This document shows positions 2,541 through 62,034 of a stretch of DNA of 64,000 nucleotides, piece after piece. A model generated the notes under the pieces. The model made no database searches and was not told the DNA's origin. It worked only from the letters and a program-made list of their open reading frames with translations. The position numbers and the translations under genes are program-made. The DNA comes from Sphingopyxis sp. (GTDB taxonomy: Bacteria; Pseudomonadota; Alphaproteobacteria; Sphingomonadales; Sphingomonadaceae), in NCBI RefSeq assembly GCF_019459305.1, contig NZ_JAIBES010000129.1, forward strand, positions 1 through 64,000, written 5' to 3'. How positions within the stretch are numbered: the first letter of the stretch is position 1; the number at the start of each line of letters is the position of its first letter.

Positions 2541-2560
2541 TTATCACACTAGGTGATAAA
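2541..2560 (+). promoter_or_regulatory. Motif A site 1 (TTATCACACTAGGTGATAAA)
   Basis: Inverted repeat TTATCAC-N5-GTGATAA with the ACTAGGT core shared with eight other intergenic sites. Confidence 0.65.
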
Positions 2561-2567
2561 CCAATAG

Positions 2568-2582
2568 TTGACACATCGTCAA
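2568..2582 (+). promoter_or_regulatory. Motif B site 1 (TTGACACATCGTCAA)
   Basis: Inverted repeat TTGAC-N5-GTCAA, near-identical to 14708-14722 and to the reverse complement of 12904-12918. Confidence 0.6.
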
Positions 2583-2634
2583 TTTTTGCGATGATGCGGA
2601 CAACAAGAACATCAACTGGAAGAGGAGAGTCGCC

Positions 2635-3948
2635 ATGAAGATGGACGACATGGTGATCATCAGCGTCGACGATCATGCAATCGAGCCCCCCGAGGCGTTC
2701 ATCCGCCACTATCCTGAAGGCAAGAAGGACCGCGCCCCGCGGATCGTGCAGGACAAGGGCAAGGACGTCTGGTCGTGGAACGGCCAACGCTTCCCCACCA
2801 TTGGCCTCAATGCCGTCGTCGGTCGGCCGCGCAGCGAATATGGCATGGAGCCCAGTTCCTTCGATCAGCTTCGTCCCGGCACTTATGATCCGAAGCTTCG
2901 CGTCGATGACATGAATGCCAATGGCGTGCTTGCTTCGCTCAACTTCCCGACCATGCCGAGCTTCGCCGGTGGCACCTTCGTGGGCATGGCGCAGAAGGAT
3001 CCTGAAGAGGCGCTGCTCGCGTGCCGCGCGTGGAACGACTGGCATGTACAGGAATGGTGCGCTGCCGCCCCGGGCCGCTTCATCCCGATGTGCCTGATCC
3101 CGATGTGGAACATGGACGACACGCTCGCCGAGTTGAAGCGAATGCGCGATTTAGGCGTCCATGCGGTCAGCTTCTCCGACAATCCCTCGAACATCGGCTT
3201 GCCGAGCATCCACAACGAATATTGGGAGCCGTTCTGGAAAGCGTGCTCCGACTACAAGATGGTGATCAACTGCCATATCGGCACCGGCGCGCGCGCGATG
3301 CATCCCTCACCCGAAAGCCCGATTGACGCGTGGATTACCGCGATGCCAATCTCGATTGCCAATTCGGCCGCCGACTGGACCTTCGCGACCTTCTGGCAGC
3401 GCTACCCCGATCTGCGTATGGCGCTCAGCGAAGGGGGCATCGGCTGGATACCCTATTTCCTAGAGCGCGCCGATTTCACACACGAACATCATCACGAATG
3501 GACCTTCACCGATTTCAAGGGCGAGCGCCCGTCGGACCTGTTCAAACGCCACATCATCTGCTGCTTCATCGACGACCAGTTCGGGGTGAAGAACCTTGAA
3601 TATATGAATGAGGATATGGTCTGCTACGAATGCGACTACCCTCATTCTGACACGGTGTGGCCCAATGTGCCCGAATATCTCTGGGCATCGGTCAATGGGC
3701 TTTCGAAGGAAACGATCGACAAGATCACGCATCAGAATGTGATTCGCGAGTACAGCTTCGATGCCTTCGCGCTGAACGGCGGCCGGGAAAATTGCACGGT
3801 CGCGCATCTACGCGAACTCGGCAAGGACGTCGACGTCAGCCCGCGGCACAATCTGGGCGGGCTCAAGACCGACAGCATGGATGCAATCGGCCAGGCGCGA
3901 CGTCCCGTGACGTCGGGCGACATCGAACGCATGTTCGCGTCGGCTTGA
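2635..3948 (+). CDS. Amidohydrolase-2 family (COG2159-like) metal-dependent hydrolase/decarboxylase
   Basis: N-terminal SVDDHAIEPPEAF, NCHIGTGA, SEGGIGWIPYFLERAD, ECDYPHSDTVWP. Confidence 0.85.
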   Translation: MKMDDMVIISVDDHAIEPPEAFIRHYPEGKKDRAPRIVQDKGKDVWSWNGQRFPTIGLNAVVGRPRSEYGMEPSSFDQLRPGTYDPKLRVDDMNANGVLASLNFPTMPSFAGGTFVGMAQKDPEEALLACRAWNDWHVQEWCAAAPGRFIPMCLIPMWNMDDTLAELKRMRDLGVHAVSFSDNPSNIGLPSIHNEYWEPFWKACSDYKMVINCHIGTGARAMHPSPESPIDAWITAMPISIANSAADWTFATFWQRYPDLRMALSEGGIGWIPYFLERADFTHEHHHEWTFTDFKGERPSDLFKRHIICCFIDDQFGVKNLEYMNEDMVCYECDYPHSDTVWPNVPEYLWASVNGLSKETIDKITHQNVIREYSFDAFALNGGRENCTVAHLRELGKDVDVSPRHNLGGLKTDSMDAIGQARRPVTSGDIERMFASA

Positions 3949-3961
3949 TAGGAGCGCCCCC

Positions 3962-5236
3962 ATGAGCGAGACGATGTCCCGTTGCCCGATCGCACGCGCG
4001 CCGGCAGATGCGCCGGCCGTTCCTGCGCATGTCCCAGCCGAACTGGTGCTTGATACGCGCTTCGCCCAGGGCCAGGTGGCGAACGACCTGCCCGATCCGT
4101 ACCTGCCGGCGGACGTCATGCGTTCGCCCGACGTACCGCGCATTCTTTATTATCCCTGGCCGACCAGTGGGCGACAGCATGGCGCGTGGACGGTGTCGCA
4201 TTACGACGACATTCGCCGCGTCTATGAGGATAACGACCTGTTCTCTACCGAAGGCGCCGCGCAATTCCAGGCGCTCGCGGGCGAGAGCTTCCCTTCGATC
4301 CCGCTCGGCATCGACCCCCCGGATCATGGCCGCTACCGCAAGTTCCTGAATCCCTGGTTCACGCCGGTCGCGATGAACGACATGGAGCCAAAAATCCACG
4401 CGATCGTCACCGAAATGATCGACGCGGTGATTGCCGAGGGCGAAGTCGATATCGCCTATGATTTCGGGCGAATTTATCCGGTTCGCGTGTTCCTGAACCT
4501 GATGGGTTTTCCGTTCAGCATGTTCGACCAGTTTCTCGAGTGGGAATATGCGATCCTGCACAATCCCGACATCCCGGCGAAGGTCGATGCGGTGAAGGGC
4601 ATCCTTGCCTATCTGCGCGCTTTCATCGCGGAGAAACAGGCGAACCCCGACGCGACGCTCGGGAGTTACATCGCCAACGGCCAGATAGAAGGGACGCCGC
4701 TGACGGCTGACGAGACGATCGGCATGACCTGGTTCCTTTGGCTTGGTGGCCTCGACACCGTGGCTTCGACGATCAGCCAGATGTTCCGCCGCATGGCGCT
4801 CGACACCGAGTTGCAAGCACGCATCCGCGCCAACCCTGAGATGGTGAACAGCGCGGTGGAAGAGTTCCTCCGGGTTCAACCGCTGGTCAACAGTGGCCGC
4901 AGGATCAAGAAGGATTTCACGTGGCATGGCGTCGACCTGAAAGAAGGCGACTGGATCGCCTGCATCAACAGCTCGGGCAATTTCGACGAACAGCAATTCG
5001 CTTGCCCGCGCGACTTCGACCCGGAGCGCAAGAACAACCGGCACTTCACGTTGATTGGCGGCGTGCACATCTGCCTCGGTGCGCATCTGGCGCGGCGCGA
5101 ACTTCGTGTACTGCTCAAGGAATGGCTGACCCGCGTGCCGCCGTTCAAGATCAAGCCCGGCGCGGACACCACAGTAATCCCAGGGCTTTTGTCGATCCGC
5201 AACCTGCCGATCGTCTGGGACGCCCAATCCGCCTGA
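3962..5236 (+). CDS. Cytochrome P450
   Basis: I-helix WFLWLGGLDTVAS, EEFLR, heme-binding IGGVHICLGAHLARRE. Confidence 0.9.
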   Translation: MSETMSRCPIARAPADAPAVPAHVPAELVLDTRFAQGQVANDLPDPYLPADVMRSPDVPRILYYPWPTSGRQHGAWTVSHYDDIRRVYEDNDLFSTEGAAQFQALAGESFPSIPLGIDPPDHGRYRKFLNPWFTPVAMNDMEPKIHAIVTEMIDAVIAEGEVDIAYDFGRIYPVRVFLNLMGFPFSMFDQFLEWEYAILHNPDIPAKVDAVKGILAYLRAFIAEKQANPDATLGSYIANGQIEGTPLTADETIGMTWFLWLGGLDTVASTISQMFRRMALDTELQARIRANPEMVNSAVEEFLRVQPLVNSGRRIKKDFTWHGVDLKEGDWIACINSSGNFDEQQFACPRDFDPERKNNRHFTLIGGVHICLGAHLARRELRVLLKEWLTRVPPFKIKPGADTTVIPGLLSIRNLPIVWDAQSA

Positions 5237-5249
5237 CAGGAACGAGACC

Positions 5250-6725: not shown

Positions 6726-6736
6726 GGAACAAGCGC

Positions 6737-7969: not shown

Positions 7970-7983
7970 GCGGCGGGCGCGGC

Positions 7984-9096: not shown

Positions 9097-9126
9097 TCGC
9101 CCTCCCTCAGGCGGGTGGGAAGGAAG

Positions 9127-10296: not shown

Positions 10297-10688
10297 TGCG
10301 CCTTCTCCCACTGCGGAAACCAGATATCTTCGATGTTGGCGAAGCTTATGCGCATCGTCTGGCCGATAGCGACGCTTTCAGGGTCGGTTCCGACAACTTC
10401 GGCGGTCACGCGGACACCCGGAGCGCCGTCGAGATCGACCACCGCGAGGGTAAAGGGGACCTGCATTCCGGGGGCCCATGGCTGATGGTTCACCGTATAG
10501 GTATAGACTGTGCCGGTTCCAGGAACCGGCCTGCTTTCAACGGCTTCGCTCCAACACTTCGGACAGATCAGCTGCGGCGGGTGGATCGCGTGGTTGCAGT
10601 CGGCGCAGAAGGCGATCATCAGTTTGCCGTCCGCGCCGCCGGTCCAGAAGGCGGTATTTTCGGGCGTCAGTTCGGGGAGTGGTCTCAT
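10293..10688 (-). CDS. DUF35 / Zn-ribbon OB-fold protein
   Basis: FCADCNHAIHPPQLICPKCWSE, GTGTVYTYTVNHQPW; 4-bp overlap with the thiolase-like gene. Confidence 0.85.
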   Translation of the reverse strand: MRPLPELTPENTAFWTGGADGKLMIAFCADCNHAIHPPQLICPKCWSEAVESRPVPGTGTVYTYTVNHQPWAPGMQVPFTLAVVDLDGAPGVRVTAEVVGTDPESVAIGQTMRISFANIEDIWFPQWEKAQ

Positions 10689-12868: not shown

Positions 12869-12903
12869 CCCGATTCCCCAATTACTATGCTTTTCTTTTG
12901 TTT

Positions 12904-12918
12904 CTGACGATACGTCAA
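12904..12918 (-). promoter_or_regulatory. Motif B site 2 (TTGACGTATCGTCAG on minus strand)
   Basis: In the divergent intergenic region between the SDR (12868, -) and the TetR gene (about 12981, +). Confidence 0.6.
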
Positions 12919-12980
12919 TTTTTTGCCTTATCGCAACCCAGCTGTTAGGAAGAGTGGCACATTTTGAGCGGGGCACGAAT

Positions 12981-13658
12981 TTGACGACACAGCAACAAGC
13001 CGTGGTTGAGCAGCGCGTGGCGTCTGATGCGGTGTCCGAGGGCACTGGTCGCAAGCTGGGCGCCAAAGGTCAGCGCACCCGTCAGCAACTGATCGATGCC
13101 ACGGTTGCGTTGCTGGAAACGCACGGGTTGCGGGACGTTTCCGTGGTCGACGTCGCTCGCGCCGCCAATACCTCGCCAGCGACTTTCTATGTCTATTTCA
13201 AAGGCGTGCCAGAGGTTGTTCTGGCGGCGCTTGAAAGTGCGACGCAAACGTCCCCGGAACTGGAGGCGATCGTGGCGAGCGACTGGCTGGCGGCTGGGGC
13301 CGCGGCAAATGCGCGAGCGTTCGTCGATTGTTATACCGATATCTGGAATCGCAACCGGACAATATTCGTGGTCCGCAACCTCGCCGCCGAAGAAGGCGAC
13401 GCGCGCTTTTACGAAGCGCGAATGACCTTGGCGCGGCCCATCCTGATTGCGATCAGCGAGCAGGTCGAGCGCGCGCAGGCGGCTGGCCGTATCCCAGCCG
13501 ACCTGTCGCCGCGTTCGTGCGCCGGAACGATGCTGATGATGCTGGAACGCCTTTCGGCCATCGGCCCGATGAGCCGCGACGATGACGGGGTCGGCTATGC
13601 CGACCTCAAGGCCGCAGCCGCGTACAGCATATCGACGATGCTGGGCGCCAGAGGGTAG
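12981..13658 (+). CDS. TetR/AcrR family regulator, probable TTG start
   Basis: GQRTRQQLIDATVALLETHGLRDVSVVDVARAANTSPATFYVYFKGVPEVVLAAL helix-turn-helix. Confidence 0.85.
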   Translation: MTTQQQAVVEQRVASDAVSEGTGRKLGAKGQRTRQQLIDATVALLETHGLRDVSVVDVARAANTSPATFYVYFKGVPEVVLAALESATQTSPELEAIVASDWLAAGAAANARAFVDCYTDIWNRNRTIFVVRNLAAEEGDARFYEARMTLARPILIAISEQVERAQAAGRIPADLSPRSCAGTMLMMLERLSAIGPMSRDDDGVGYADLKAAAAYSISTMLGARG

Positions 13659-13807
13659 CTGTGGCGATCCCCCCTGTCGCGCAGCGATGGGAAGCCGACA
13701 GCGGTGTAACCCCTGACGGAGGGGCCTTGGCACTGCCGTCGCCGCGCCTTCACCACTCGCTGGGCGAGCGGTTCCCTTCCCCATGACTTCGTCACCGGGA
13801 GGTTGAG

Positions 13808-14638: not shown

Positions 14639-14707
14639 ACCTTCTCCGTCCGTTTTTATCTAGAGAAACCGGGGTAAACCCGCGCCGACCGAGCAGCAAG
14701 TCAAAAC

Positions 14708-14722: not shown

Positions 14723-14742
14723 TAATTTGGATACGCTGTAAA

Positions 14743-19978: not shown

Positions 19979-19998
19979 GCTTTTCTCCCGATTCCCAG

Positions 19999-20020
19999 TT
20001 ATCTAACTAGGTTTGATATG
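19999..20020 (+). promoter_or_regulatory. Motif A site 2 (TTATCTAACTAGGTTTGATATG)
   Basis: About 20 bp upstream of the minus-strand thiolase/DUF35/CaiB operon. Confidence 0.65.
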
Positions 20021-20045: not shown

Positions 20046-21272
20046 TCAAGCGAAATGGAGTTTCCGGTATTTGCCGCGGAAGTAGAGCAACGGGTCGCGG
20101 CGGGGCTCGAAAATCGCCTTCACGACGCGCCCGACCAAAAGGAAATGATCGCCGCCGTCGTGCACCGCATCGCGCACGCATTCAAAGCTGCTGAGTGATC
20201 CGGTCAGGACTGGCGTACCAAATTCGCCGGTTTCCCATGGAGTCGCGGCGAAGCGGTCTTCACCCTTTCCCGCGAAACGGTTTGATGTTGGCTGCTGGCC
20301 GATCTGCAGCACATTCACCGCGAAGCGCTCGGCCTTGCGCAGGTGAGGCGCGCTGCCCGCGTTGTTCGCGATGCACACGAGCAGCAGCGGCGGGTCGAGC
20401 GATACCGAAGTGAAGCTGTTCGCGGTCAGCCCGATCGGCGCGCCGTCGGGGCAGAAAGCGGTGACGACCGTGACCCCGGTCGCAAAGCATCCGAGGGCGT
20501 CGCGGAAAGTGCGCGCGTCAGACCCGGCGCGATATTCGGGCGAACCGCGCGGCGCACGTCGTTCGAGAAAATCGATGAGATGGCCGCCCATCGCGTCGAT
20601 CCGGTCCTCGGTCACGACAAATGCCGCGTCCTCCACTTCGACGAGTTCGCCGTCGGGGAGCCGATCGACGAACGCCCCTGCGTCTTCACGCGAGACGATC
20701 TCGCTCATCGCCCCGCGAACGTAGAGCGTCGGCACCGCAATATGCTCGGCGACACCCTCAAGCCGCCCGGTCATCGATGCGGTATCGAACGCGCCCAGCA
20801 TGCGGACGTCCCACTGGGCCTGGCCGGGGCTGAGCGAGGCAACTTCGCGGAGTCGCGCGCCGATCTTGTGCGAGACGGCTGGATTGACGTTGAGCGGGAG
20901 ATCGACAAGCACCAGACCGGCCGCGAGCATCGCTGCATCGCGTTCGAGCGCCGCGCTGGCGATCCAGCCGCCAAGCGTCGATGCGACGACCACCGGCCGC
21001 GTACTAAGTTGCGCGAGCACAGAGCGCAAATCCTGGACCATCGACTCAAAATCATAGCGACCGTCCTCGGGCCATTCGCTGCCGCCATGGCCGCGCAAGT
21101 CGAGGCTGATGACACGGCGCCCAGCCTGTCGAAGGGCCTCGGCAACGCTGTCCCAGACGCGGCGGGTCTGTCCCGCACCGTGGACCAGCAGCACCGACGG
21201 GTCATCATCCGCTCCGACCACTTCGGCCTCCAACCGGACGCCAGCAAAGCCCTGATACTGGATGATGGTCAT
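20046..21272 (-). CDS. Fusion of alpha/beta-hydrolase and flavin reductase (HpaC/HsaB-like) domains
   Basis: N-terminus VLLVHGAGQTRRVWDSVAEALRQAGRRVISLDLRGHGGS...; C-terminus FRDALGCFATGVTVVTAFCPDGAPIGLTANSFTSVSLDPPLLLVCI. Confidence 0.85.
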   Translation of the reverse strand: MTIIQYQGFAGVRLEAEVVGADDDPSVLLVHGAGQTRRVWDSVAEALRQAGRRVISLDLRGHGGSEWPEDGRYDFESMVQDLRSVLAQLSTRPVVVASTLGGWIASAALERDAAMLAAGLVLVDLPLNVNPAVSHKIGARLREVASLSPGQAQWDVRMLGAFDTASMTGRLEGVAEHIAVPTLYVRGAMSEIVSREDAGAFVDRLPDGELVEVEDAAFVVTEDRIDAMGGHLIDFLERRAPRGSPEYRAGSDARTFRDALGCFATGVTVVTAFCPDGAPIGLTANSFTSVSLDPPLLLVCIANNAGSAPHLRKAERFAVNVLQIGQQPTSNRFAGKGEDRFAATPWETGEFGTPVLTGSLSSFECVRDAVHDGGDHFLLVGRVVKAIFEPRRDPLLYFRGKYRKLHFA

Positions 21273-21985
21273 ACCATCTCTTCCTGCGACGCGACGCCGA
21301 GGTGAAGCCAGACGTCAAACTGCTCCGACCGCCGCCGCATCATCAGGCGCGCGATATCGGCGTCGCCCTCGATAATCGCCTGACACAGGCTGCGCTGCAT
21401 CGCGCGCGTGCGCTCGCGCCGATCAGCGTCGGCATAAAGGTCGCTGCCCCGTTCATCGAGGCCGAAGCTGTAGCCGATCTCCATCACCAGTTCGACGACA
21501 GGATTCCCGCTCATCTGTGCGATCATCCGCGCGAGTTCGACTTCGGCTGTGATCAACTCTCGCGCCGTGTCGTGCCCGTCGATTCGATCGACGAACGACT
21601 GCATCCGTCCGACATCCTCGTCGGTGCGCAAGCGTGCGGCTGCGACCGCCGCCTCTTCCGATACCGGGCGCGTGACCTGGATGACGTCACTCAGGCTGGC
21701 GCCGCGCATCCGCAGGAAGCGCGCGAGCGATTGGATTGCATCGCGGGCGTCGGGACGTTCGGCAAAATAGCCGCCCTTGGTGCCGCGCCGGATACTGATC
21801 AACCGGTCGCGCTCGACCATCTTGGCCGCCTGTCGGAGCGTCGGCCGACTGACGCCAAAGCGCCCGAGCAACTCGTCCTCGGCGCCCAGATAGTCGCCGG
21901 GTTCGGCGGCGAGGCTGAGGCCGGCAAGCGCCCGTGCGGTGCGGCTGGCAAGCGTCTCATTAGCGCCGGCAAATTGCATGACCAT
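21269..21985 (-). CDS. GntR family regulator with FCD-type C-terminus
   Basis: LLGRFGVSRPTLRQAAKMVERDRLISIRRGTKGGYFA helix-turn-helix; helical C-terminal ligand domain. Confidence 0.8.
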   Translation of the reverse strand: MVMQFAGANETLASRTARALAGLSLAAEPGDYLGAEDELLGRFGVSRPTLRQAAKMVERDRLISIRRGTKGGYFAERPDARDAIQSLARFLRMRGASLSDVIQVTRPVSEEAAVAAARLRTDEDVGRMQSFVDRIDGHDTARELITAEVELARMIAQMSGNPVVELVMEIGYSFGLDERGSDLYADADRRERTRAMQRSLCQAIIEGDADIARLMMRRRSEQFDVWLHLGVASQEEMV

Positions 21986-22049
21986 CTCCCTTAATAGGTA
22001 TCTGTTTATGTGCAAATAGGCCCAATGTCTAGATTTTCCTTGCCCAGAC

Positions 22050-22071
22050 TTGTATAACTAGGTAGTTATTA
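22050..22071 (+). promoter_or_regulatory. Motif A site 3 (TTGTATAACTAGGTAGTTATTA)
   Basis: Interrupted palindrome ATAACTA-GG-TAGTTAT (22054-22069) between divergent GntR and amidohydrolase genes. Confidence 0.7.
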
Positions 22072-24694: not shown

Positions 24695-27205
24695 TCAGAA
24701 TCTTATCGTCCCCGTCAGGCCGAAGGTGCGGGGTTCCTGCCGGGTCGATGAGACATAGCCCACCGGCGCCACCAGCAGATTATTCACAAACGTGCGGTTG
24801 TTGGTGATATTACGCACAAAAACCGCGAGTTCGTATGTGTCATCGGCAAAGCTGACCGCCGCGCGCGCGCCGAACAGATCCTGAGCCTTGCGTGTCGTGG
24901 TAAACACGACCGCATCGTTTTGCGTGTTGACGGCACCCGGAACGGCCGTCGATCCCGGGGGAACGGTCGCCGCATTCTGCGGAAAGAAATAGGATCCGGT
25001 CGGGCTCTTGCCGAGGTGGCTGTAGTCGGCGTGAAGTTTCAGACGAAAATCGCCGAAATCGCGATTGAAATCGAGCGCGGCGCCCCACTGCCAACGTGCG
25101 ATCGATTCAAAACGTTCGAAGCTGCGGTCTCCCTGCAAATCCGAATAACTGACATATTTCGGATCGACATGGGCGAGGAAGCCACTGAGCCGAAGATCGT
25201 CGGTGACGGCGAACATCGTCTCGGTTTCGAAACCGCGAACCCGCACCTTGCCCGCATTGCCGAGAACCGTGGCCGACGCGCCTTGGTTAGCCCCGGGCTG
25301 GGCGATCAGGGTGCTACGCTGAATATCGCTGATGTCCGACTGATAAACCGCCGCGTTGAAACGCAAGCGGCGATCGAAAAACTCACCTTTGAACCCCGCC
25401 TCGTAAGAATAGGCGACTTCGGGTTGGAACGGAATCAAGAAGACCGACGACGGCGCGCGCAGATTCTGACCACCCGAGCGGAAGCCCTTCGCGGTCTTGA
25501 GATAGACCATCGTGTCGTCGGTCAGATCATATTCTAAACCCGCCGTATAGGACCAGCCTGAAAAACTGTCGCGGCGCTTCACAGCGCATTGCGGCGTTTC
25601 GACCAGCTCCGGACCAACAATCGGCGGAGCAGTGAACAGCGAACAAGTCGTGGTCTGCGTCGCCCGATTGAAATTGTTGTTGAGGCTGTTGATCCCCTTG
25701 TCATCTACCGAATAGCGAAGGCCGCCGGTGAAGGAAAAGCGATCGGTGAAATGGAACGTGCCCTGTGTGTAGGCACCCATGCTGTCATTGTCGATATTGG
25801 CGAAGAAATGCGACGTAACGGGGTTGATCGCCGGAGCCACGATTGAGATCGACTGATCGAATCCGTTCTCGTGAAAGGCAAAGAATCCGGTCGCAAAGTC
25901 GAGCTTGTCATCGAACGCCGTGCCAGTGATCTGAAACTCGCCCGAATATTGTTCGACCGACTGCTGGCTCTCGGTGAAATGGATCGCGAAGCGGCTGCCG
26001 TCGAGGTCGACGCCGGCATGAGCGTCGATCTTGCGATAACCGAGGATCATCTGCATCTGACCGAAGCTGGTGTCGAGGATGCCCGTCGCACCGAAAGTCT
26101 TCGTCTTGGCGAAGGCGTAGGGCACTTCGTTGTTCGAAGCGATCGACGGGTCGGCAGCGAGCGCCGCAATGTCCGGGTTGAGCAGCGACAGTCCGAGCGC
26201 TGTGGCCGTTGCGGGTGTGGCGCCATTGATCAGGCCGACGAACAGTGCACCAGTCCCACCAAGATTAAAGGTGGAATTGGACGCGGTGAATCCCGAAGTC
26301 GCAAGGCGCAACTGCCGAGAGGGGGACTGCTCATCCATCCGGAAATATTCGCCCGACAGGCGGAGCGTGAAATTTTCGGTTGGCTTGAAATCGACCTTGA
26401 CCCGTCCATTCCACCGGTCGCGGTTGTCGAGCTTTACGCCGTCCGGCGTACCCGCAAACGGCGCCTGTGCGACGGCCGGATTATCGGGCGCGATCGCCGA
26501 CACGGTGCCCGCAGGAACGACATTGGTGGTATAACCCTCGCGGCTCAGTCGCTGAAGCGCCACGCGCACGCCGAGCTTGTCATCGACGATCGGCAAATTG
26601 AGTACGCCGGTCGCCTGAAACTCGTTGAATCGGCCGTACGTGACCGACAGGCTGCCCCCAAAGTCATTGAGATCCGGATTGTTCGAGTTGATCAGCAGCG
26701 CACCGCCGGTGGTGTTGCGACCGAACAGGGTGCCCTGCGGCCCCTTGAGCACCTGCACCGACTGGACGTCGAGGAAATCGCCGTTCAGGCCATAGGATCG
26801 TGCCCAATAAACACCGTCAACATATGTTCCGACCGATGGATCGAGCGTGATAAGCGTATCGGTCTGGACCTGACCGCGCAGTGTTACGGTCAGCGCGCTG
26901 GGGGTGTTCGAACCCGAACGGATCAGCAGGCCAGGCGTAAAATTGGCCAAGTCCTGCACCTGCTGGACATTGCGGTTGGCGAGATCATCGCCCGACAGCA
27001 CAGTAACTGCAACCGGGACGTCCTGGAGGTTTTCGTCGACCTTGCGTGCCTGAACAATGATGGCGTCAAGGCCGCCATATTCCTGGGCTTCGTCAGCCGG
27101 CGCTGCGGCGTCCTGGGCAAAGGCCGGGGCCGATGACAGCGCCACTGCCGCCAACGAAACCTGAGCGAGCATCCGAAACGAATAGCGCTTCTGCTTGAAA
27201 TTCAT
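24695..27205 (-). CDS. TonB-dependent receptor
   Basis: Signal peptide MNFKQKRYSFRMLAQVSLAAVALSSAPAFA; DAIIVQARKVDENLQDVPVAVTVLSGDDL plug; C-terminal ...RTFGLTGTIRF. Confidence 0.93.
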   Translation of the reverse strand: MNFKQKRYSFRMLAQVSLAAVALSSAPAFAQDAAAPADEAQEYGGLDAIIVQARKVDENLQDVPVAVTVLSGDDLANRNVQQVQDLANFTPGLLIRSGSNTPSALTVTLRGQVQTDTLITLDPSVGTYVDGVYWARSYGLNGDFLDVQSVQVLKGPQGTLFGRNTTGGALLINSNNPDLNDFGGSLSVTYGRFNEFQATGVLNLPIVDDKLGVRVALQRLSREGYTTNVVPAGTVSAIAPDNPAVAQAPFAGTPDGVKLDNRDRWNGRVKVDFKPTENFTLRLSGEYFRMDEQSPSRQLRLATSGFTASNSTFNLGGTGALFVGLINGATPATATALGLSLLNPDIAALAADPSIASNNEVPYAFAKTKTFGATGILDTSFGQMQMILGYRKIDAHAGVDLDGSRFAIHFTESQQSVEQYSGEFQITGTAFDDKLDFATGFFAFHENGFDQSISIVAPAINPVTSHFFANIDNDSMGAYTQGTFHFTDRFSFTGGLRYSVDDKGINSLNNNFNRATQTTTCSLFTAPPIVGPELVETPQCAVKRRDSFSGWSYTAGLEYDLTDDTMVYLKTAKGFRSGGQNLRAPSSVFLIPFQPEVAYSYEAGFKGEFFDRRLRFNAAVYQSDISDIQRSTLIAQPGANQGASATVLGNAGKVRVRGFETETMFAVTDDLRLSGFLAHVDPKYVSYSDLQGDRSFERFESIARWQWGAALDFNRDFGDFRLKLHADYSHLGKSPTGSYFFPQNAATVPPGSTAVPGAVNTQNDAVVFTTTRKAQDLFGARAAVSFADDTYELAVFVRNITNNRTFVNNLLVAPVGYVSSTRQEPRTFGLTGTIRF

Positions 27206-27250
27206 GGTCAACATCCTCCCTGCAAGGCTTCCTGCCGGCCTCACTTATCC

Positions 27251-27276
27251 AGTTATATAACTAAGTCTAATAAGAC
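27251..27276 (+). promoter_or_regulatory. Motif A site 4 (AGTTATATAACTAAGTCTAATAAGAC)
   Basis: About 50 bp upstream of the TonB receptor; contains perfect palindrome AGTTATATAACT. Confidence 0.65.
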
Positions 27277-30817: not shown

Positions 30818-30840
30818 CATATATTACCTAGTTTGATAGG
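30818..30840 (-). promoter_or_regulatory. Motif A site 5 (minus: CCTATCAAACTAGGTAATATATG)
   Basis: Divergent intergenic region between 30787 (-) and 30859 (+). Confidence 0.65.
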
Positions 30841-30858
30841 TCGAGCAAGGAGAATGGG

Positions 30859-33751: not shown

Positions 33752-33777
33752 CATAATTGACCTAGTTATATAACTCG
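33752..33777 (-). promoter_or_regulatory. Motif A site 6 (minus: CGAGTTATATAACTAGGTCAATTATG)
   Basis: Divergent intergenic region between 33721 (-) and 33818 (+); contains AGTTATATAACT. Confidence 0.7.
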
Positions 33778-39367: not shown

Positions 39368-39931
39368 CTAGTCGTCGACGATGGCCTGGAACTCGCTTTC
39401 CAGCCAGGCGCGAAGACTGGGTTCGACTGGACCCGCGAATTCGGCGAGCGGCAACTGGTCGCGGTAAGCAAAGAAGCCGAGCGAAACCATCATGAACCGC
39501 GCCGCCTTGACCGCCGCAATGTCGCCGCCGAACCATATCTGCAACGGCTCGAACACCCGGTCGCGCAGCAATCGCGCGGTGATTGCGCGCGCTTCGCTGT
39601 CACCGGCGGCACGGAACATCATCGGCAGCGGACTAACGCGATCATCCTCGTCGGCAAAGCGCGCGACAATGAGTTTGCCGAAATTTTCCTTGGGCAGGTT
39701 GGTCATCAGCCGGGGATCGAGTGCAGCATCGAGCGCCGCCTCGAACAGTTTGAGCTTGCCGCCAAAATAGCGGCTGACCAGCGACGGGTTCACGCCGGCG
39801 AGCGCGGTAATGTCGCGCACGCCGGCTTCGGCAAAGCCCTTTTCGGCGAAAATTTGCTGCGCAGCAAAAAGGATCGCCGCCCTTGTCCGGTCGGCATCGC
39901 GCGAAGGCTGTTCGATTGTGGTCGTCATCAT
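39368..39931 (-). CDS. TetR/AcrR family regulator
   Basis: RAAILFAAQQIFAEKGFAEAGVRDITALAGVNPSLVSRYFGGKLKLFEAAL. Confidence 0.88.
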   Translation of the reverse strand: MMTTTIEQPSRDADRTRAAILFAAQQIFAEKGFAEAGVRDITALAGVNPSLVSRYFGGKLKLFEAALDAALDPRLMTNLPKENFGKLIVARFADEDDRVSPLPMMFRAAGDSEARAITARLLRDRVFEPLQIWFGGDIAAVKAARFMMVSLGFFAYRDQLPLAEFAGPVEPSLRAWLESEFQAIVDD

Positions 39932-39952: not shown

Positions 39953-39968
39953 GTAAACACTCGTTTAC
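39953..39968 (+). promoter_or_regulatory. TetR-type operator GTAAAC-ACTC-GTTTAC
   Basis: Perfect 6-bp arms between divergent TetR (39931, -) and P450 (39991, +), inside candidate -35/-10 spacers. Confidence 0.7.
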
Positions 39969-43915: not shown

Positions 43916-45417
43916 GCGGTTTGCCGCAGTGCGTGCTTCAGCACCTTGCCCGAGGCGTTGCGCGGTAATTCGGGCAGGATGCTGAGCCGTTCGGGCGTCT
44001 TTTGTCTGGCAATCCCCGCTCCGGCAAAATGGTTGCGCACATCATCCAAAGTCAGCGCGGCGTCCGGCGCCAGCACGACGCAGGCCAGCACGACCTCGCC
44101 CATCCGGTCATCAGGCGCGGCGACTGCGGCGGCATCGACGATCGCGGGGTGCGACAACAGCACCGCCTCGACCTCTTTCGACGAGATATTTTCTCCGCCG
44201 CGGATGATGATGTCCTTTTTGCGGTCGGTGATCAGCAAATAGCCGTCGGCATCAACGCGGCCGATGTCGCCGGTGCGATACCAACCGCCCGGAAGAAAGG
44301 CCGCCGCGTTGAGCGTAGGGTCCAGATAGCCCATGAAGAGTTCGGGGCCACGGGTGCAGATTTCGCCGTCTTCCCCCGCGGCGACGTCATGGCCGTCGTC
44401 ATCGACGAAGCGCATTTCGGATCCCATGATCGCGCGGCCTTCGGTGTGGAGTTGCTTGTCGAGCGGATCGTCGACAACGCCTGAAGTCACTGTTGGATGT
44501 TCGCTCGACCCGTAGCAATGATAGACCGCCAGCCCCTGTGCCTGACAGCGCGCGATCAGGGACGGTGGCACCGGCGCCGCGCCCACCAGATACTGGCGCA
44601 GCGAGCTGAGGTCATTGCCGTTGGCGTCAGCCGCCGCAATCATGCCAGACAGATGGAAAGGCGTGCCAGACGACGTGGTGACGCGGTGCCGTTCCACCAG
44701 TTCGGCGGCCAGGGACGCGTCCCACTGGTCCATCAGCACCAGCGGCGCGCCCTGGCAAAGATAGCGGTACATCGACAATGCGCCTGCGACATGGCCGGGC
44801 GGCCAGGGCGAGATGACGGCATCGTTTCCATCGCCGCCGCGCGTTGCCTGCATCGTCGCCAGTTCCGCGAGCAGACCGCGCGCCGAGTGCATAACGCCTT
44901 TGGGATCGGCGGTGGTGCCGGATGTGTAGACGAGCAGCGCCATATCGTCCGGGTCGATGCGCACCGGATCGGCGATGGGACCGTCGGCCTCCAGTGCGTC
45001 AAAAGCGGGACCGGTCGCGATATGACGTTCGAGCGCGGGCAGAGCACCGCAATCTGCAACGACGCGGTCATAATCTACGCCGCGAAAATGATCGGGGGTG
45101 AAGAGCCATCTGGCGCCGGACTGGCGAAGAATGAAGCCAAGCTCCTTGGCGCCATAAATCGTGACGATCGGGAGCATCACGGCACCCGCCTGCGCCGCGG
45201 CGACCGCGACCACCAGCCATTCGCGCCAGTTGGGCACCATACAGCCGACAATATCGCCGGGTCCGACGCCCGAGGCCGTCATTCGTGTGCCCATGCGGCG
45301 GCCCGCGGCGATCACTTCGCCCAAAGCCGTTGTGCAGGGGCGGATATCCGAAGCAACGGTGAGCGGCGCAGCAGCTGCCCGCTCCGCCGCAACGATCATC
45401 GCTTCGATGAAGCTCAT
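43912..45417 (-). CDS. Acyl-CoA synthetase (class I adenylate-forming)
   Basis: LLVYTSGTTADPKGVMHSARG; YGSSEHPTVTSG; ITDRKKDIIIRGGENISSKEVEAVL. Confidence 0.9.
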   Translation of the reverse strand: MSFIEAMIVAAERAAAAPLTVASDIRPCTTALGEVIAAGRRMGTRMTASGVGPGDIVGCMVPNWREWLVVAVAAAQAGAVMLPIVTIYGAKELGFILRQSGARWLFTPDHFRGVDYDRVVADCGALPALERHIATGPAFDALEADGPIADPVRIDPDDMALLVYTSGTTADPKGVMHSARGLLAELATMQATRGGDGNDAVISPWPPGHVAGALSMYRYLCQGAPLVLMDQWDASLAAELVERHRVTTSSGTPFHLSGMIAAADANGNDLSSLRQYLVGAAPVPPSLIARCQAQGLAVYHCYGSSEHPTVTSGVVDDPLDKQLHTEGRAIMGSEMRFVDDDGHDVAAGEDGEICTRGPELFMGYLDPTLNAAAFLPGGWYRTGDIGRVDADGYLLITDRKKDIIIRGGENISSKEVEAVLLSHPAIVDAAAVAAPDDRMGEVVLACVVLAPDAALTLDDVRNHFAGAGIARQKTPERLSILPELPRNASGKVLKHALRQTA

Positions 45418-46190
45418 CCGTGCAGCGAATCGACGATCCGCTCGCCTTCGCCGCGCACCGCCCACGTTTCGTTGGCGTTGCGCAGGTGCAGCCGCCAGTG
45501 CGCGACGGCTTCCTCGACCTCACCCTTTTCAATCAGGCCGATCAGCTTGTCGTAGGATTTAAACCCGGCGCGGATGCTTTTCATCCGTTCCTCCGTCGTG
45601 CGTGGGTGGCGGCGCTGATAATCATTCTGGTGGGTACGCGCGAGGTTCAGGAGCATCCGGTTCATAAAACTGAGCGTCTTGTTGCCCGTCGCCTCGACAA
45701 GCACCTGATGGAAATAGGCGATATTATCGATGAATTCGTCATATTGCTCGTTGGCGAGCATATCACCGAGGTCCTTGAGCACGGACTTGAGTTTGGGCAT
45801 CCCCGGAGTCTTGCCCTTAACCGTCGCCAGCCAGCGCACCACCGTCGGCTCGATCGCCAGACGCGCGGCGTAAAAATCCGCGATCGTCGTACCCTGTGAT
45901 TCCAGCACGTAGCCGGCATAACGCGAAACAAGCTCGGTCGAAGGGCGATGCACGCGCGCGCCGCTGCGCGATCCGCGCACGACGCTGATCAGGCTCTCGG
46001 CCTCGAGAATACGAAACGCCTCGCGCAGCGTCGGCCGCGACACACCGAGCGTGGTCATCAACACGCCTTCGGGTGGCAACGAATCGCCCTCGGTCAGTTC
46101 GCCGCGAATAATCTGCGCCCGGATCTGATCGGCCACCAGCTCCGAAGTCTTGGGAACGCGAATCCGCCCATTGTCCCTATCGCTCTGCAA
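45414..46190 (-). CDS. GntR family regulator, FCD domain (FadR subfamily)
   Basis: VADQIRAQIIRGELTEGDSLPPEGVLMTTLGVSRPTLREAFRILEAESLISVVRGSRSGARV. Confidence 0.9.
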   Translation of the reverse strand: MQSDRDNGRIRVPKTSELVADQIRAQIIRGELTEGDSLPPEGVLMTTLGVSRPTLREAFRILEAESLISVVRGSRSGARVHRPSTELVSRYAGYVLESQGTTIADFYAARLAIEPTVVRWLATVKGKTPGMPKLKSVLKDLGDMLANEQYDEFIDNIAYFHQVLVEATGNKTLSFMNRMLLNLARTHQNDYQRRHPRTTEERMKSIRAGFKSYDKLIGLIEKGEVEEAVAHWRLHLRNANETWAVRGEGERIVDSLHG

Positions 46191-46288: not shown

Positions 46289-47149
46289 TTACCCGCCAAA
46301 CGCCAACCCCTCGTTCAGCGTCCACCGGCGGTCGCGGCCGCGCACCCAGCCTGACGACGCCCAGGTGCCGCCATCGACGGGCAGCAGGACGCCGGTGATG
46401 TAAGTCGACATCGCGCTTGCCAGGAACACCGCCGCGTCGCCGCATTCCATATCCACCCCCTCGCGCCCCAGCGGGATCAACCGGTTCATCGCGTCGATTT
46501 CGTCGTCACTGCGTTTTTTCCATGTCGCGGGATCGACCGGACCTGCTCGATTGCCCTGATTCCCGGGGGTGATCGTATGATCGGGCGCAAGACAGTTTAC
46601 GCGTATGCCATGCTCCGACAACTCGACAGCCATCGACTTGGTGAAGCTGAGCATCCCCGCCTTGCACGCCGCATAGACTGCAAAATTCGGCGCCGCCCGG
46701 CTCGCCTCGATGCTGGCGACGTTGATCATCGTGCCGCCGCGCCCGCCCGCCACCATATGAAGCGCCGTCGCCTGCGTCGCGACGAGCATCGACATCAGGT
46801 TGATGTCGATATGCTTGCGCATGCTGCGCTCGCTTTGTTCAAGGAATGGGCGCGCCGAAACGCCACCGGCGTTATTGACCAGTATATCGAGTCGTCCGAA
46901 CGTGGCCGCCGCCATATCGATCGCGGACCGTAACGCCGCGGAATCCATGACGTCACCGACAATCGGGATTGCCTGTCGGCCCTGTTCGCGTACGCGCGCG
47001 ACGGCTTCATCAGCGCGTTCGGGAAAAATGTCGAAGATCGCGACATCGGCGCCTGCTTCGGCAAGCCGCAGTGCGATGGCGCGCCCGATGCCACCGCCGC
47101 CGCCAGTGACGAACGCCGCCTGCCCGTTGAGGCGCGACCGGTCAGTCAT
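46289..47149 (-). CDS. SDR family oxidoreductase
   Basis: MTDRSRLNGQAAFVTGGGGGIGRAIALRLAEAGADVAIFD; YAACKAGML. Confidence 0.85.
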   Translation of the reverse strand: MTDRSRLNGQAAFVTGGGGGIGRAIALRLAEAGADVAIFDIFPERADEAVARVREQGRQAIPIVGDVMDSAALRSAIDMAAATFGRLDILVNNAGGVSARPFLEQSERSMRKHIDINLMSMLVATQATALHMVAGGRGGTMINVASIEASRAAPNFAVYAACKAGMLSFTKSMAVELSEHGIRVNCLAPDHTITPGNQGNRAGPVDPATWKKRSDDEIDAMNRLIPLGREGVDMECGDAAVFLASAMSTYITGVLLPVDGGTWASSGWVRGRDRRWTLNEGLAFGG

Positions 47150-47645
47150 CGAGGTCGATCCCCATAACGGCGCCGGTAACATAGGCGGCGTAATCGCTGA
47201 CCAGATAAGCCGCGAGATTGCCTAGTGTGTTGCCAGTGTCGCGGGTCAGGATGCTATTCACCCGGATGCCGTCACGTGCCCATTCGACGCTCAGCGTCTT
47301 GGTCAGATTGCCAAGAGCGCCAGCAGCGGCGGCGTGATCGGCGCCGAGCGCCTGTTCGGGCGCACCAACGAAAAGCACCGCGCCGCCCGTCCCGCGCGCA
47401 CGGCATTGCGCGGCGAAATCCCTGGCGCCGAGGAAGCGGCGATCAAGCCCGATGTCTAGGCTCGCGCGCCATTCGCTGTGGGTCAATTCGTGTGCGAGCC
47501 TGATCGCAGGGGGCGGGGCAACATGCACCCAGATGTCGCAATCTTCAGAATCATCAACGGCGGCGTCTTGCGCGGCCAATGCCGATGCAATCGCGGGACT
47601 GACGCCCTCGATGCGCACGCGCTTCCCCGAAAGCCAGCCGCTCAT
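47142..47645 (-). CDS. Degenerate SDR-like protein lacking cofactor and catalytic motifs
   Basis: SDR-like C-terminal half (GALGNLTKTLSVEWARDGIRVNSIL...LAAYLVSDYAAYVTGAVMGIDLDD) but no TGxxxGxG and no YxxxK. Confidence 0.65.
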   Translation of the reverse strand: MSGWLSGKRVRIEGVSPAIASALAAQDAAVDDSEDCDIWVHVAPPPAIRLAHELTHSEWRASLDIGLDRRFLGARDFAAQCRARGTGGAVLFVGAPEQALGADHAAAAGALGNLTKTLSVEWARDGIRVNSILTRDTGNTLGNLAAYLVSDYAAYVTGAVMGIDLDD

Positions 47646-48523: not shown

Positions 48524-48573
48524 TTGTCTCTCCCGGCGCCAAGGGTTGCGCGCTACGCTGTCGCGTGTCAAGA

Positions 48574-48598
48574 CATACATAACTAGGTTATATAGGAC
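48574..48598 (+). promoter_or_regulatory. Motif A site 7 (CATACATAACTAGGTTATATAGGAC)
   Basis: Divergent intergenic region between SDR (about 48523, -) and SMP-30-like gene (48606, +). Confidence 0.65.
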
Positions 48599-51447: not shown

Positions 51448-51462
51448 ACCAGGGACATAAGC

Positions 51463-54349: not shown

Positions 54350-54353
54350 GGCG

Positions 54354-55337: not shown

Positions 55338-55353
55338 CCTGTCCCTTTCCTTA

Positions 55354-55376
55354 CTTATCTAACCTGGTTATACTTC
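55354..55376 (+). promoter_or_regulatory. Motif A site 8 (CTTATCTAACCTGGTTATACTTC)
   Basis: Palindrome TAACC-T-GGTTA; divergent region between 55337 (-) and 55404 (+). Confidence 0.55.
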
Positions 55377-55403
55377 TTCTGAACGCGTGACAAGAGGTGT
55401 CCC

Positions 55404-57328: not shown

Positions 57329-57332
57329 CAGG

Positions 57333-58391: not shown

Positions 58392-59761
58392 GCAAATGTC
58401 TCCAATTCGTCGAGTGCGGCGATGAACAGCGTGGCGATGCGGCCGACATCGACGATCTTTTCGGCATCGGCGATCACGCCCATGTCGAGATTGTCGCCAC
58501 TACGCCGCGAGGTGATGTTGAGGAAACGTCCCGATCCGATGATCGGCACGGGGTAATTATGGCGCTGACGAAAGCCCGCATAGCTGCGCATTTCGGACGG
58601 GCCGGGCACGTTCGACAGGGTGATATTGCCGGGGATCAGCCGCTTGCCACGCGCCATGCGCTCGGCAAAGGCGGCGCGGCGATCGCGCGCGCCATAGGGT
58701 TTTTCGGCGGCGTCGAGCAAAGCTTCGTCATGCGGCGTGCGGCGCATCTCGGCCGCCATCGACATCTGGATCGCGCGCAGCCGATCAACCGGATCGGCGA
58801 GATGAGTCGCAAGGTGCGGGTGAAGCGCGACGATCCGGTTGCCGAAATCGCCATGCTCATCGCGGCGGTAAGAGCGCGCCGAATTGATGACGAGTGGCGT
58901 GTCGGGAAGATCGTCGATTTCGATGAGATAGTTACGCAGCGCGGTGCTGGCGAGGGCGAGGAAAATATCGTTGACCGTGGCGTCGAGACTGTCGGCCACC
59001 ACTTTCACGCGCGTTAGCGGCAGGCTGATCGTGGCATAGCGTCGTCGGCCCGACGTCGGTCCGGACATTTTCAGCGGCGGCGTGGGCGCGCGTTCGTGCC
59101 TAAAGGACTCCAGCGCGGCGAGCGCATCCTTGCGCCGCACCGCCTGTTCTGCTCGCAAACCCGCCTGCGCATCGAACCGCGCGTCGGCGCGCTCAAGCCA
59201 TTTTTCGGGTTCGGGTAGGCGAGCATCGGCAAAGCGCGCTGTTGCGGGCGGCGTGGCATCGCTCAGCAGATGGAGGATGGTCTGGAATCCGATTCCGTCG
59301 GCGACGCTGTGGTGCATCTTGAGATAAAGCGCGCTGCCGCCAGCGACGAGCCGGTCAAAGACATGAACGGCAAAGGGCGGCCCTGACAAGTCGAGCCGCT
59401 GCATATTGAGCGCGGCTATGGCGTCGTAAAGCTCCGCCTCGGTCCAGGCACCGTCATGCGGCACGACAGCGACAAGCGTTTCGAGATCGGCCTTCGCGAC
59501 GTCAACCCAGACGTCGCTATCATAACCGTCGGGTGCTTCGTGCAGCCTCACGAGCAACGGCGTCGCAGGAAGCCGATCGGCGAACTGACGGCGGATCGCC
59601 GCGGCCAGATCATCCTGCCGTTCGGCCGGCACATCGAGCAGGATCATCGCGCCGATGTGCATCGGCGAGGCGTCGGTTTCGGACAGGATCATGAAATGAT
59701 CGTCGGGGCGTAGCCGGCGCACGCCGGGCGCTAGTCGCAGCGGGTCGGTCGCCGCGCTCAA
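58388..59761 (-). CDS. WS/DGAT-family O-acyltransferase
   Basis: LKMHHSVADGIGF (HHxxxDG); MILLDVPAERQD; LTRVKVVADSLDATVNDIFLALASTALRNYL; NITLSNVPGPSE. Confidence 0.88.
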   Translation of the reverse strand: MSAATDPLRLAPGVRRLRPDDHFMILSETDASPMHIGAMILLDVPAERQDDLAAAIRRQFADRLPATPLLVRLHEAPDGYDSDVWVDVAKADLETLVAVVPHDGAWTEAELYDAIAALNMQRLDLSGPPFAVHVFDRLVAGGSALYLKMHHSVADGIGFQTILHLLSDATPPATARFADARLPEPEKWLERADARFDAQAGLRAEQAVRRKDALAALESFRHERAPTPPLKMSGPTSGRRRYATISLPLTRVKVVADSLDATVNDIFLALASTALRNYLIEIDDLPDTPLVINSARSYRRDEHGDFGNRIVALHPHLATHLADPVDRLRAIQMSMAAEMRRTPHDEALLDAAEKPYGARDRRAAFAERMARGKRLIPGNITLSNVPGPSEMRSYAGFRQRHNYPVPIIGSGRFLNITSRRSGDNLDMGVIADAEKIVDVGRIATLFIAALDELETFA

Positions 59762-59764
59762 CGT

Positions 59765-60757
59765 TTACCAGCCCGCCAGATTGGCGGCGCGCGCGCGATG
59801 CTCGGACGGGCTGCCAAGCCAGGCACGGTCGAACGCAGCACGGCGGAACCAGTAATTAAGCCCATATTCCCACGTATAACCGATGCCGCCGTGCGCCGCG
59901 ACCGCAGCGCGCGCGGCGCGAACAAAGACGTCGCACAGATGCGCTTTTGCCATCGCAGCCGCCCGGGGCGCATCGGGCAGAGCTGCGTCCCACGCATAGG
60001 CGGCATACCAAACCAGCGCGCGCGCCGGTTCGGCGTCGAGCGCCATATGGGCGAGCTGATGCTTGAGCGCCTGAAATCGACCGATCGGCTGACCGAACTG
60101 TTCGCGTTCCTTGGCATAGGCGACGCTCATGTCGGTGACCTTTTGCGCGCCCCCGAGCGCGTCTGCGGCGACAAGCACGAGCGCCGCATCGGCGAGGCGC
60201 GCCGTCATCGCATCGGAAGCGGCAAAGATCGCATTCCCTGCCCCGTCGGCGATCACCACCTTTGAAACGGGGCGGCTGCGGTCGGTCGATTTGAGCGGCT
60301 CGATCGTGACGCCCTCGCCCGCAGGGATGAGCCGAACGCCAGCCGCCCGGTCGACGACTAGAAAATAGTCGGCGGCCCGCGCGCACGGCACATAGGCACT
60401 GCCCCCATGCACCAGCGTCGCGACCTTTTCGCCGCTAACCAGTGCATCGAGCGGGAAATCGCTGTTCCCCAAGGCGGCGACCGCCGCGACGGAAAGCAAC
60501 TGGCCGATCAACGGCCCCGGCGCAGCGGCCTCTCCGGCCACTTCGCACGCGAGCGCCGCGTCGAGCAGCCCCATGCCGCTGTCAGGCAACAAGATGTCGC
60601 CAAGGCCCAGCGCCATCAGCGCATTCCAGCTGGTCCGGTCAAAGTCCTGGTCGCCATCAGCGAAAGCGTGGAGCCGATCAAGTGGCCAATTGTCGGCGAG
60701 TGTTCCGCGCACTGCATCCTGGATCGCAGCCTGTTCCTGGGTAAGGTGAAAATGCAT
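59765..60757 (-). CDS. Acyl-CoA dehydrogenase, small FadE-like subunit
   Basis: YAKEREQFGQPIGRFQALKHQLAHMALDAEPARALVWYAAYAWD; VAAHGGIGYTWEYGLNYWFRRA. Confidence 0.87.
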   Translation of the reverse strand: MHFHLTQEQAAIQDAVRGTLADNWPLDRLHAFADGDQDFDRTSWNALMALGLGDILLPDSGMGLLDAALACEVAGEAAAPGPLIGQLLSVAAVAALGNSDFPLDALVSGEKVATLVHGGSAYVPCARAADYFLVVDRAAGVRLIPAGEGVTIEPLKSTDRSRPVSKVVIADGAGNAIFAASDAMTARLADAALVLVAADALGGAQKVTDMSVAYAKEREQFGQPIGRFQALKHQLAHMALDAEPARALVWYAAYAWDAALPDAPRAAAMAKAHLCDVFVRAARAAVAAHGGIGYTWEYGLNYWFRRAAFDRAWLGSPSEHRARAANLAGW

Positions 60758-60760
60758 CGC

Positions 60761-61972
60761 TCATCGCTCTCCGCTCAGCGCGAGATCGCGCGGCAGGCCG
60801 AGACCGCGTTCGCCGATGATGTTGCGCTGGATGTTCGACGCGCCGCCGGCAATCGAATTGCCGAGGCTGCCCATGATCTGGTCGAGCCATTTTTCGGGAC
60901 CGCGCGGACCACGATTGCCGCGCCCGCCCGCGCCCGAAGGCTCGACAAACCCATGTTCGCCAATCAGTTCCTGCGAGAGCAGCGCCATTTCGTGGCCGAT
61001 CTCGGTCAGCAGCAGTTTCATCATCAGCGCCACCGGGCCGGGATCCTCGCCCGCTGCGGCGCAGCTGAACAGGCGGAAACTGGTGTAGCGGTGCGAGAGG
61101 ACAAAGCCTTCGATCTGTGCGAGCTTGTCGCGGATCACCGGTTCGTCGATGCGACCGACGTCCTTTGCCAGCTCGACGAGCTTCGCGAACTGGCGCCCCA
61201 GCCCGTCGGCGCTGCCGATGCTGGCGCGTTCGTGCTTCAGCGTCGTGCGGCTGACGTACCAGCCCTGCCCGCGTTCGCCGACCTGCCAGCCGACCGGCGT
61301 TTCGGCATTGTCGAAGAAGAATTCGCAGAAGGTGTGATCCCCCTCCTCGCCCGTCATTTGGCGGATCGGGCGGCGGGTTATTCCGGGTTGTTCAAGATCG
61401 ATCAGCAGATAGGTGATGCCATCGTGCTTCGGCGCATCGGGCTCTGTGCGCACAAGCATGAACATATGCGTCGATTGCATCCCCTGCGACGTCCAGATTT
61501 TCTGCCCATTGATGATCCATTTGCTACCGTCGGCGGACAGCTCCCCTTTGGTGCGCACGCTGGCAAGGTCAGATCCCGATCCAGGTTCGGAATAACCCTG
61601 TCCCCAGACATAGTCGCCAGCGACCGTCTTGCGGATGAACAGCTCTTTCTGCTCGTCGGTGCCCTTTTCCAATAGGGTCGGCACAGTCATATTCATACCG
61701 TTTCCACCGATTTCCGCTGGCGCTCGGGCGCGAGCGAATTCCTCACGGATCACCTGCGCCTTGATGACATCGACCGGCTGCTGCGAACCGCCGTAGATTT
61801 TCGGGATCGCACGATAGAGATAGCCGGCGTCTGTCGCCTGAGCGCGGAAATCGCGGATGAACGCCTTGAGGTCGGCGCCGCGCAGGTCGGCGGCCCGCGG
61901 CCAATTCGAAGCAAGGAAGGCGCGCACTTCCGCGCGAAAGGCTTCAGCGGCCTGGCCATAGCTTAGATCCAT
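60761..61972 (-). CDS. Acyl-CoA dehydrogenase
   Basis: VWGQGYSEPGSGSDLASVRTKGEL; AGGASNIQRNIIGERGLGLPRD. Confidence 0.92.
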   Translation of the reverse strand: MDLSYGQAAEAFRAEVRAFLASNWPRAADLRGADLKAFIRDFRAQATDAGYLYRAIPKIYGGSQQPVDVIKAQVIREEFARARAPAEIGGNGMNMTVPTLLEKGTDEQKELFIRKTVAGDYVWGQGYSEPGSGSDLASVRTKGELSADGSKWIINGQKIWTSQGMQSTHMFMLVRTEPDAPKHDGITYLLIDLEQPGITRRPIRQMTGEEGDHTFCEFFFDNAETPVGWQVGERGQGWYVSRTTLKHERASIGSADGLGRQFAKLVELAKDVGRIDEPVIRDKLAQIEGFVLSHRYTSFRLFSCAAAGEDPGPVALMMKLLLTEIGHEMALLSQELIGEHGFVEPSGAGGRGNRGPRGPEKWLDQIMGSLGNSIAGGASNIQRNIIGERGLGLPRDLALSGER

Positions 61973-62010
61973 CGCTCGCTCTCCCTGGTTCGTGAGCGAA
62001 TCTATGCCTG

Positions 62011-62034
62011 AGTTATATAACTACGTCAAATATG
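62011..62034 (+). promoter_or_regulatory. Motif A site 9 (AGTTATATAACTACGTCAAATATG)
   Basis: Divergent intergenic region between 61972 (-) and 62067 (+); contains AGTTATATAACT. Confidence 0.65.

Follow-up and report, generated by a model that had tools for sequence, protein, structure and literature searches.

The question raised by the 64,000-nucleotide stretch of Sphingopyxis sp. analysed here (contig NZ_JAIBES010000129.1, positions 1 to 64,000; in the following, the window) is whether nine similar AT-rich elements in its intergenic regions mark a single regulon and, if so, which protein reads them. The comparison of sequences indicates that the nine elements, together with three further ones outside the window, are very probably operators of one pathway-specific factor, the GntR-type regulator g43 (45414-46190, minus strand), which is encoded within the same island. 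All gene calls used are mechanical predictions. The putative operators of the window, each found by position weight matrix (PWM) and profile scans and numbers 2 and 3 also by pattern scans as listed, are the following:

Operator 1, 2537..2560, plus strand: between divergent g3 (ChsH2-like/DUF35, minus strand) and g4 (amidohydrolase, plus strand); kept in the orthologous gap of relatives.
Operator 2, 19995..20018, plus strand: upstream of g18 (thiolase-like, minus-strand operon); pattern, PWM and profile scans.
Operator 3, 22046..22069, plus strand: between divergent g20 (second GntR/FCD regulator, minus strand) and g21 (amidohydrolase, plus strand); pattern, PWM and profile scans.
Operator 4, 27249..27272, plus strand: upstream of g23 (TonB-dependent receptor, minus strand); holds AGTTATATAACT.
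Operator 5, 30820..30843, minus strand: between divergent g27 (SDR, minus strand) and g28 (isochorismatase-like, plus strand).
Operator 6, 33754..33777, minus strand: between divergent g30 (SDR, with CoA ligase, minus strand) and g31 (enoyl-CoA hydratase/ACAD operon, plus strand); top score of all sites of the genome.
Operator 7, 48571..48594, plus strand: between divergent g47 (SDR, start uncertain, minus strand) and g48 (SMP-30, plus strand); near-perfect dyad ATAACTAGGTTAT.
Operator 8, 55351..55374, plus strand: between divergent g55 (NMO, minus strand) and g56 (quinone reductase, plus strand); lowest score of the twelve.
Operator 9, 62009..62032, plus strand: between divergent g61 (ACAD/WS-DGAT operon, minus strand) and g62 (acyl-CoA thioesterase, plus strand); holds AGTTATATAACT.

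All nine elements had been proposed in an earlier note on this DNA, and pattern and PWM scans recovered each of them at most a few bases from where it had been placed. The near-identical core that the note ascribed to them is exact in five sites (AACTAGGT), while the other four (CACTAGGT, AACTAAGT, AACCTGGT and AACTACGT) deviate from it by one or two changes; the perfect palindrome reported for three sites, AGTTATATAACT, was found unaltered at 27251, 33764 and 62011. Seven of the nine sites, and not six as had been counted, lie between divergent genes, those at 20005 and 27259 being single-sided. When a de novo expectation-maximization search was run on contig C22, which extends 26.7 kb past the window, the nine-site element came out of its 37 intergenic regions as the top motif, with a log-likelihood of 135 as compared to 68-77 in four shuffled sets. 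A 24-column PWM identified eleven sites on C22 at 27-39 bits, the best position elsewhere reaching 13 bits, and in leave-one-out tests the held-out site was outscored by other true sites only. The two sites thereby added lie just past the window (contig cores 65869 and 69810); divergent gaps hold nine of the eleven, mostly 25-55 bp from both start codons. Pattern and profile searches were extended to the whole genome of 3.97 Mb, where the profile scan gave twelve matches, eleven of them in C22, whose share of the total sequence is 2.3% (binomial P about 1e-17). With these results the assumption that the recurrence is unlikely to be due to chance stands. The twelfth site is located on C107, an 8-kb contig (core 4509, minus strand). 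Alignment to genome G001 placed C107 at 1938598 and C22 at 1938611, meaning that in relatives C107 runs straight into the left end of C22, and all twelve sites therefore belong to a single island. It spans about 80 kb up to a boundary near contig position 74.3 kb, beyond which the similarity to relatives is lost.

The shape of the element was derived from 183 sites of 22 genomes, which were reduced to 58 non-redundant ones with the consensus ASWTRTMTAACYARGTWWAYATSW. They describe a dyad, TRTNTAAC-YAR-GTTANAYA, with an AC-YAR-GT core, whose strongest symmetry axis is the A of YAR (inner C/G pairing 100%, next A/T pairing 91%); a weaker second axis, 6.5 bp leftward, yields AGTTATATAACT. In its simplest reading the element would be composed of three RGTTATA-type half-sites, two of which are everted around YAR with one extra half-site to the left. 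This third half-site, ASTTAT, overlaps the dyad on one side with about 9.5 nt between the two centres, and the consensus of the first reading appeared asymmetric because of its presence beside the everted pair. For operators of the GntR family, weaker extra half-sites have been reported 7-12 nt from the dyad centre (PMC4494728).

Five regulators are encoded by the island, namely the GntR/FCD proteins g20 and g43, the TetR proteins g13 and g37 and the MarR protein g50. The two of GntR/FCD type, both of which the earlier note had named as possible readers, are:

g43, 45414..46190, minus strand: GntR/FCD regulator, 258 aa, TTG start; candidate reader by Pfam domains, co-occurrence and self-operator in relatives.
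g20, 21269..21985, minus strand: second GntR/FCD regulator, putative target of operator 3; no orthologue in the motif-bearing complete genome G067.

The start of g43 was placed at TTG 46190 by alignment of orthologues. Its winged helix-turn-helix (wHTH) domain matches PF00392 with 62.8 bits (cut-off 27) and its FCD domain PF07729 with 55.2 bits (cut-off 24.3), so that its domain composition assigns g43 to the FadR (FCD) subfamily of GntR regulators. The AlphaFold2 model (predicted local distance difference test score, pLDDT, 87.6) matches structures of FCD regulators, with NanR ranking first by E-value; the global template-modelling (TM) scores are moderate (0.45-0.64), as would follow from a different placement of the two domains. 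Over 29 orthologues, 73% of the columns are invariant in the wHTH as compared to 35% in the FCD domain. With regard to a small carboxylate or metal as ligand of the FCD domain, an alignment showed His161 and His235 of g43 to be invariant and His231 nearly so.

Within 80 Sphingopyxis genomes, the motif and a g43 orthologue of at least 71% identity occur in the same 24, and both are lacking in the other 56 (Fisher P 6e-21, a nominal value since genomes of one genus are related and not independent samples). Among 401 genomes of the order, the eight with at least four sites are exactly the eight with a g43 orthologue of at least 67%. A further seven have one or two matches: four of these possess a 47-49% homologue of g43 within about 7 kb, two have their site beside a homologue of the thiolase g72, and the last match (E 0.09) is chance-like. 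A scan of named genomes, by which the window is placed in Sphingopyxis, identified relatives of g43 in Novosphingobium, Blastomonas, Henriciella, Parasphingopyxis, Pontixanthobacter, Altererythrobacter and others; where identity is at least 47%, nearly all have sites within 10 kb, as compared to close to none with column-permuted matrices. Genome searches across more than 40 genomes used stricter filters, by which weak sites can be missed. At 46% identity or below, sites are absent nearby, apart from weak matches in Nocardia arizonensis and one in an AT-rich metagenome-assembled genome (MAG), and beside such remote homologues (Pseudomonas, Gordonia, Nocardioides, Actinomadura and others) neither AACNNNGTT nor the FadR-type TNGTNNNACNA was found to be enriched. 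Sites are kept at orthologous promoters across genera, and in the rearranged islands of Henriciella and of a Caulobacter MAG they are again located at promoters. Pontixanthobacter has just two sites near its gntR gene, one of them beside a thiolase homologue. The gntR gene itself is preceded by a site in Novosphingobium, Henriciella, Parasphingopyxis and Altererythrobacter, at a distance of about 100-165 bp from its aligned start. The earlier note would have taken a motif equally common inside unrelated genes as a refutation, and this is not what was observed: mapped genes cover 78% of the DNA fetched from relatives, yet of its 182 sites 180 fall outside them. The search of intergenic regions followed by scans of the genome and of relatives, as had been proposed, thus returned a top-ranked motif that is confined to the island and kept in relatives, and the postulate of one regulon across the locus is well supported by comparative genomics. 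As far as sequences can tell, comparison documents the motif, its island confinement, its promoter position, its linkage to g43 and the self-site in other genera.

Beside these relatives, Nocardia arizonensis (locus L299, 10966-13402) was found to carry three weak motif-like sites next to three g43-like GntR copies of 33-39% identity, which suggests a related operator in an actinobacterium. Two MAGs, L229 (titled Gammaproteobacteria) and L245 (Rudaea), contain a Sphingomonad-like regulator of 84% and 69% identity, respectively, together with sites; these are likely binning errors or cases of transfer.

Several observations weigh against g43 as the reader. No good site was found before g43 itself in this genome or in its Sphingopyxis relatives, and genome G255, which has a 47% homologue, lacks a match to profile R1 and gave weak PWM hits only. 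Co-occurrence by itself would fit any gene of the island, and reduced islands therefore matter for the choice of regulator. Finally, the everted AC-N3-GT operator of the island is not the TKGT-N2-3-ACMA consensus of the FadR subfamily, which is common, though not universal (PMC4494728). As two known members, NanR with direct repeats TGGTATAW and BioR with TTATMKATAA, also depart from this rule (PMC4494728), the deviating operator rules out the standard operator only, not g43. In other respects g43 resembles the members of the subfamily (FadR, LldR, PdhR, DgoR), with which it shares the combination of wHTH and FCD domains, the single operator in the middle of a divergon and the extra half-site; sites of the subfamily are typically single and near the middle of divergons, and its proteins typically bind small carboxylates (PMC4494728). 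Unlike there, twelve operators are packed in one island.

The best relative of g43 with a solved structure, by both sequence and fold, is E. coli NanR (6on4, 6wfq), likewise an FCD regulator with an off-consensus operator, whose half-site GGTATA resembles RGTTATA. It differs in its direct repeats, which were not found in the motif alignment and contrast with the everted dyad, in an identity of about 27% and in that sialic acid is not the context here; accordingly low is the score of g43 against the NanR model of NCBIfam (94.5 bits, cut-off 260). BioR, a GntR-type protein that controls biotin genes in Alphaproteobacteria, has the AT-rich operator TTATMKATAA (PMC4494728), which has TTATM in common with the left end of the motif. 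Neither the whole operator nor its ATAA arm occurs in any of the twelve sites when read by eye, however, and none of the genes next to them was recognised as a biotin gene. With respect to the organisation of the regulon, KstR of actinobacteria is comparable, being encoded within a large island for steroid degradation in which it has many operators; it is a TetR-family protein with another operator. The regulon concept is hence ordinary, less so the operator geometry, the number of operators per island and their persistence through rearrangement. The claim that the regulon is undescribed agrees with the limited, open-licence literature, in which no matching description and, by topic, no account of the island or its regulator was found, searches with the motif letters giving unrelated papers only.

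Other readers of the motif have to be weighed against g43. That one of the TetR or MarR proteins of the island (g13, g37, g50) or a factor encoded elsewhere takes this role is unlikely, even though an AT-rich dyad of about 19 bp would suit TetR or MarR sites in length and g13 was found in 13 of 14 genomes checked. The promoters of g13 and g37 carry distinct palindromes of their own, conserved across relatives; g37 is absent from motif-bearing G067 and G387, and g50 from G067, G016, G030, G227, G305 and G387, while an outside factor would leave the absence of the motif from the 56 island-free congeners unexplained, unless it was lost with the island. Marginally less likely still is that g20 reads the operators, alone or jointly with g43. 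It is of FCD type, has a site in its own promoter gap and possesses orthologues in 22 of the 24 motif-bearing Sphingopyxis genomes, but it is missing from G067 and G081, reaches only 56% identity in G016, where the motif is unchanged, and shares 35% identity with g43 in the wHTH. In the complete genome G067 (3 contigs), which has many sites, g43 is present at 71%, g20, g37 and g50 are absent and g13 reaches only 42%. Of the five regulators, g43 is the only one for which none of the motif-bearing genomes tested lacks a close orthologue, and it was chosen as reader because it alone fits throughout reduced islands and motif-bearing genomes; the second GntR, the MarR and both TetR proteins were rejected, as none of them tracks the motif. 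Of the two GntR/FCD proteins named earlier, g43 is thus retained and g20 demoted to a target.

An explanation without a specific regulator would be that the motif is a core-promoter element, i.e., a -10 region with spacer, which we regard as improbable: the elements are AT-rich, lie 25-90 bp from start codons and in several cases, read by eye, show a TTGNCN hexamer some 17 bp ahead of their right half, but a sigma factor requires neither the invariant AC-N3-GT core nor a dyad, the element is confined to one island, and no general rule emerged over the 58 non-redundant sites by which -35 and -10 boxes, or a -35 box alone, would stand at a constant distance from the motif. The probability of a dispersed repeat or a chance AT-rich sequence is close to negligible. 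It could be argued for from the whole-genome scan with two mismatches, in which the reversed control gave 24 matches and the motif 13; this count is uninformative genome-wide, however, the clustering alone being telling, with 12 of the 13 motif matches in one contig. Unrelated sequences flank the different sites, promoters of other genera conserve them, and the profile scans refute this explanation.

With g43 as the preferred reader, a mechanism can be suggested in which a g43 dimer would bind the everted pair, overlapped on one side by the third half-site. A single operator in the middle of the gap would control both divergent transcription units by blocking both promoters, and at least ten operons of the island would thereby be switched together. 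Most likely g43 acts as a ligand-released repressor on these mid-divergon operators, site position and the habit of the family speaking for repression rather than activation; its release may be brought about when the FCD domain binds a pathway intermediate that is oxidised or linked to CoA. The genes flanking the sites encode ChsH2-like/DUF35 with thiolase-like proteins, amidohydrolases, the TonB receptor, SDRs, CoA ligases, enoyl-CoA hydratases, acyl-CoA dehydrogenases, NMO, quinone reductase, SMP-30 and thioesterase, and the island includes paired acyl-CoA dehydrogenases, thiolase/ChsH2-like pairs and P450s. From this gene content we infer a steroid- or terpenoid-like substrate.

A large uncharacterised degradation island, which recurs in Sphingopyxis, Novosphingobium and Blastomonas and is rearranged in Henriciella and Parasphingopyxis, is hereby given a candidate regulator, an exact operator and a target list. 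This makes it testable, as an inducer of one putative repressor should reveal the substrate. An off-consensus operator is added to those of the FCD regulators, useful for understanding how the DNA specificity of the family changes, and the series of circuits from two to twelve sites may illustrate how a regulon grows with its gene cluster. Tentatively, and with somewhat less than even confidence, these proteins might form an alphaproteobacterial FCD family with everted half-sites and a third half-site, opposite to the rule of the FadR subfamily, that grew from a two-site circuit (its own neighbourhood and one thiolase, as in Pontixanthobacter) into a network with 10-14 operators under one regulator, which persisted while an island of about 80-100 kb was rearranged, with operators gained at each new promoter.

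The palindromes at the TetR genes are:

TGACGATACGTCA, 12905..12917, no strand assigned: at the promoter of g13 (12954-13658), conserved in Sphingopyxis and Novosphingobium; likely the own operator of g13.
GTAAACACTCGTTTAC, 39953..39968, no strand assigned: at g37 (39368-39931) and the P450 gene g38, conserved in Sphingopyxis; likely the own operator of g37/g38.

Beside operator 1 in the g3/g4 gap, TTGACACATCGTCAA (2568-2582) is conserved in Sphingopyxis and partly in Novosphingobium; it resembles the g13 palindrome TTGACGATACGTCAA, for which reason g4 may have a second regulator, and it also looks like a -35 box. The most variable gene of the island is that of the TonB receptor (24695-27214), with 37-57% identity as compared to 80-95% for most neighbours, yet in this genome it keeps an operator. 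A thiolase-like gene (906-2090) is divided into two adjacent open reading frames, g1 and g2, both of which have separate matches in relatives too, and the split may reflect a frameshift, a gene-calling artefact or a real two-part gene. Finally, g45 (47142-47378, 78 aa) is a short open reading frame resembling an SDR C-terminus, which is kept at 65-92% in relatives beside full-length SDRs.

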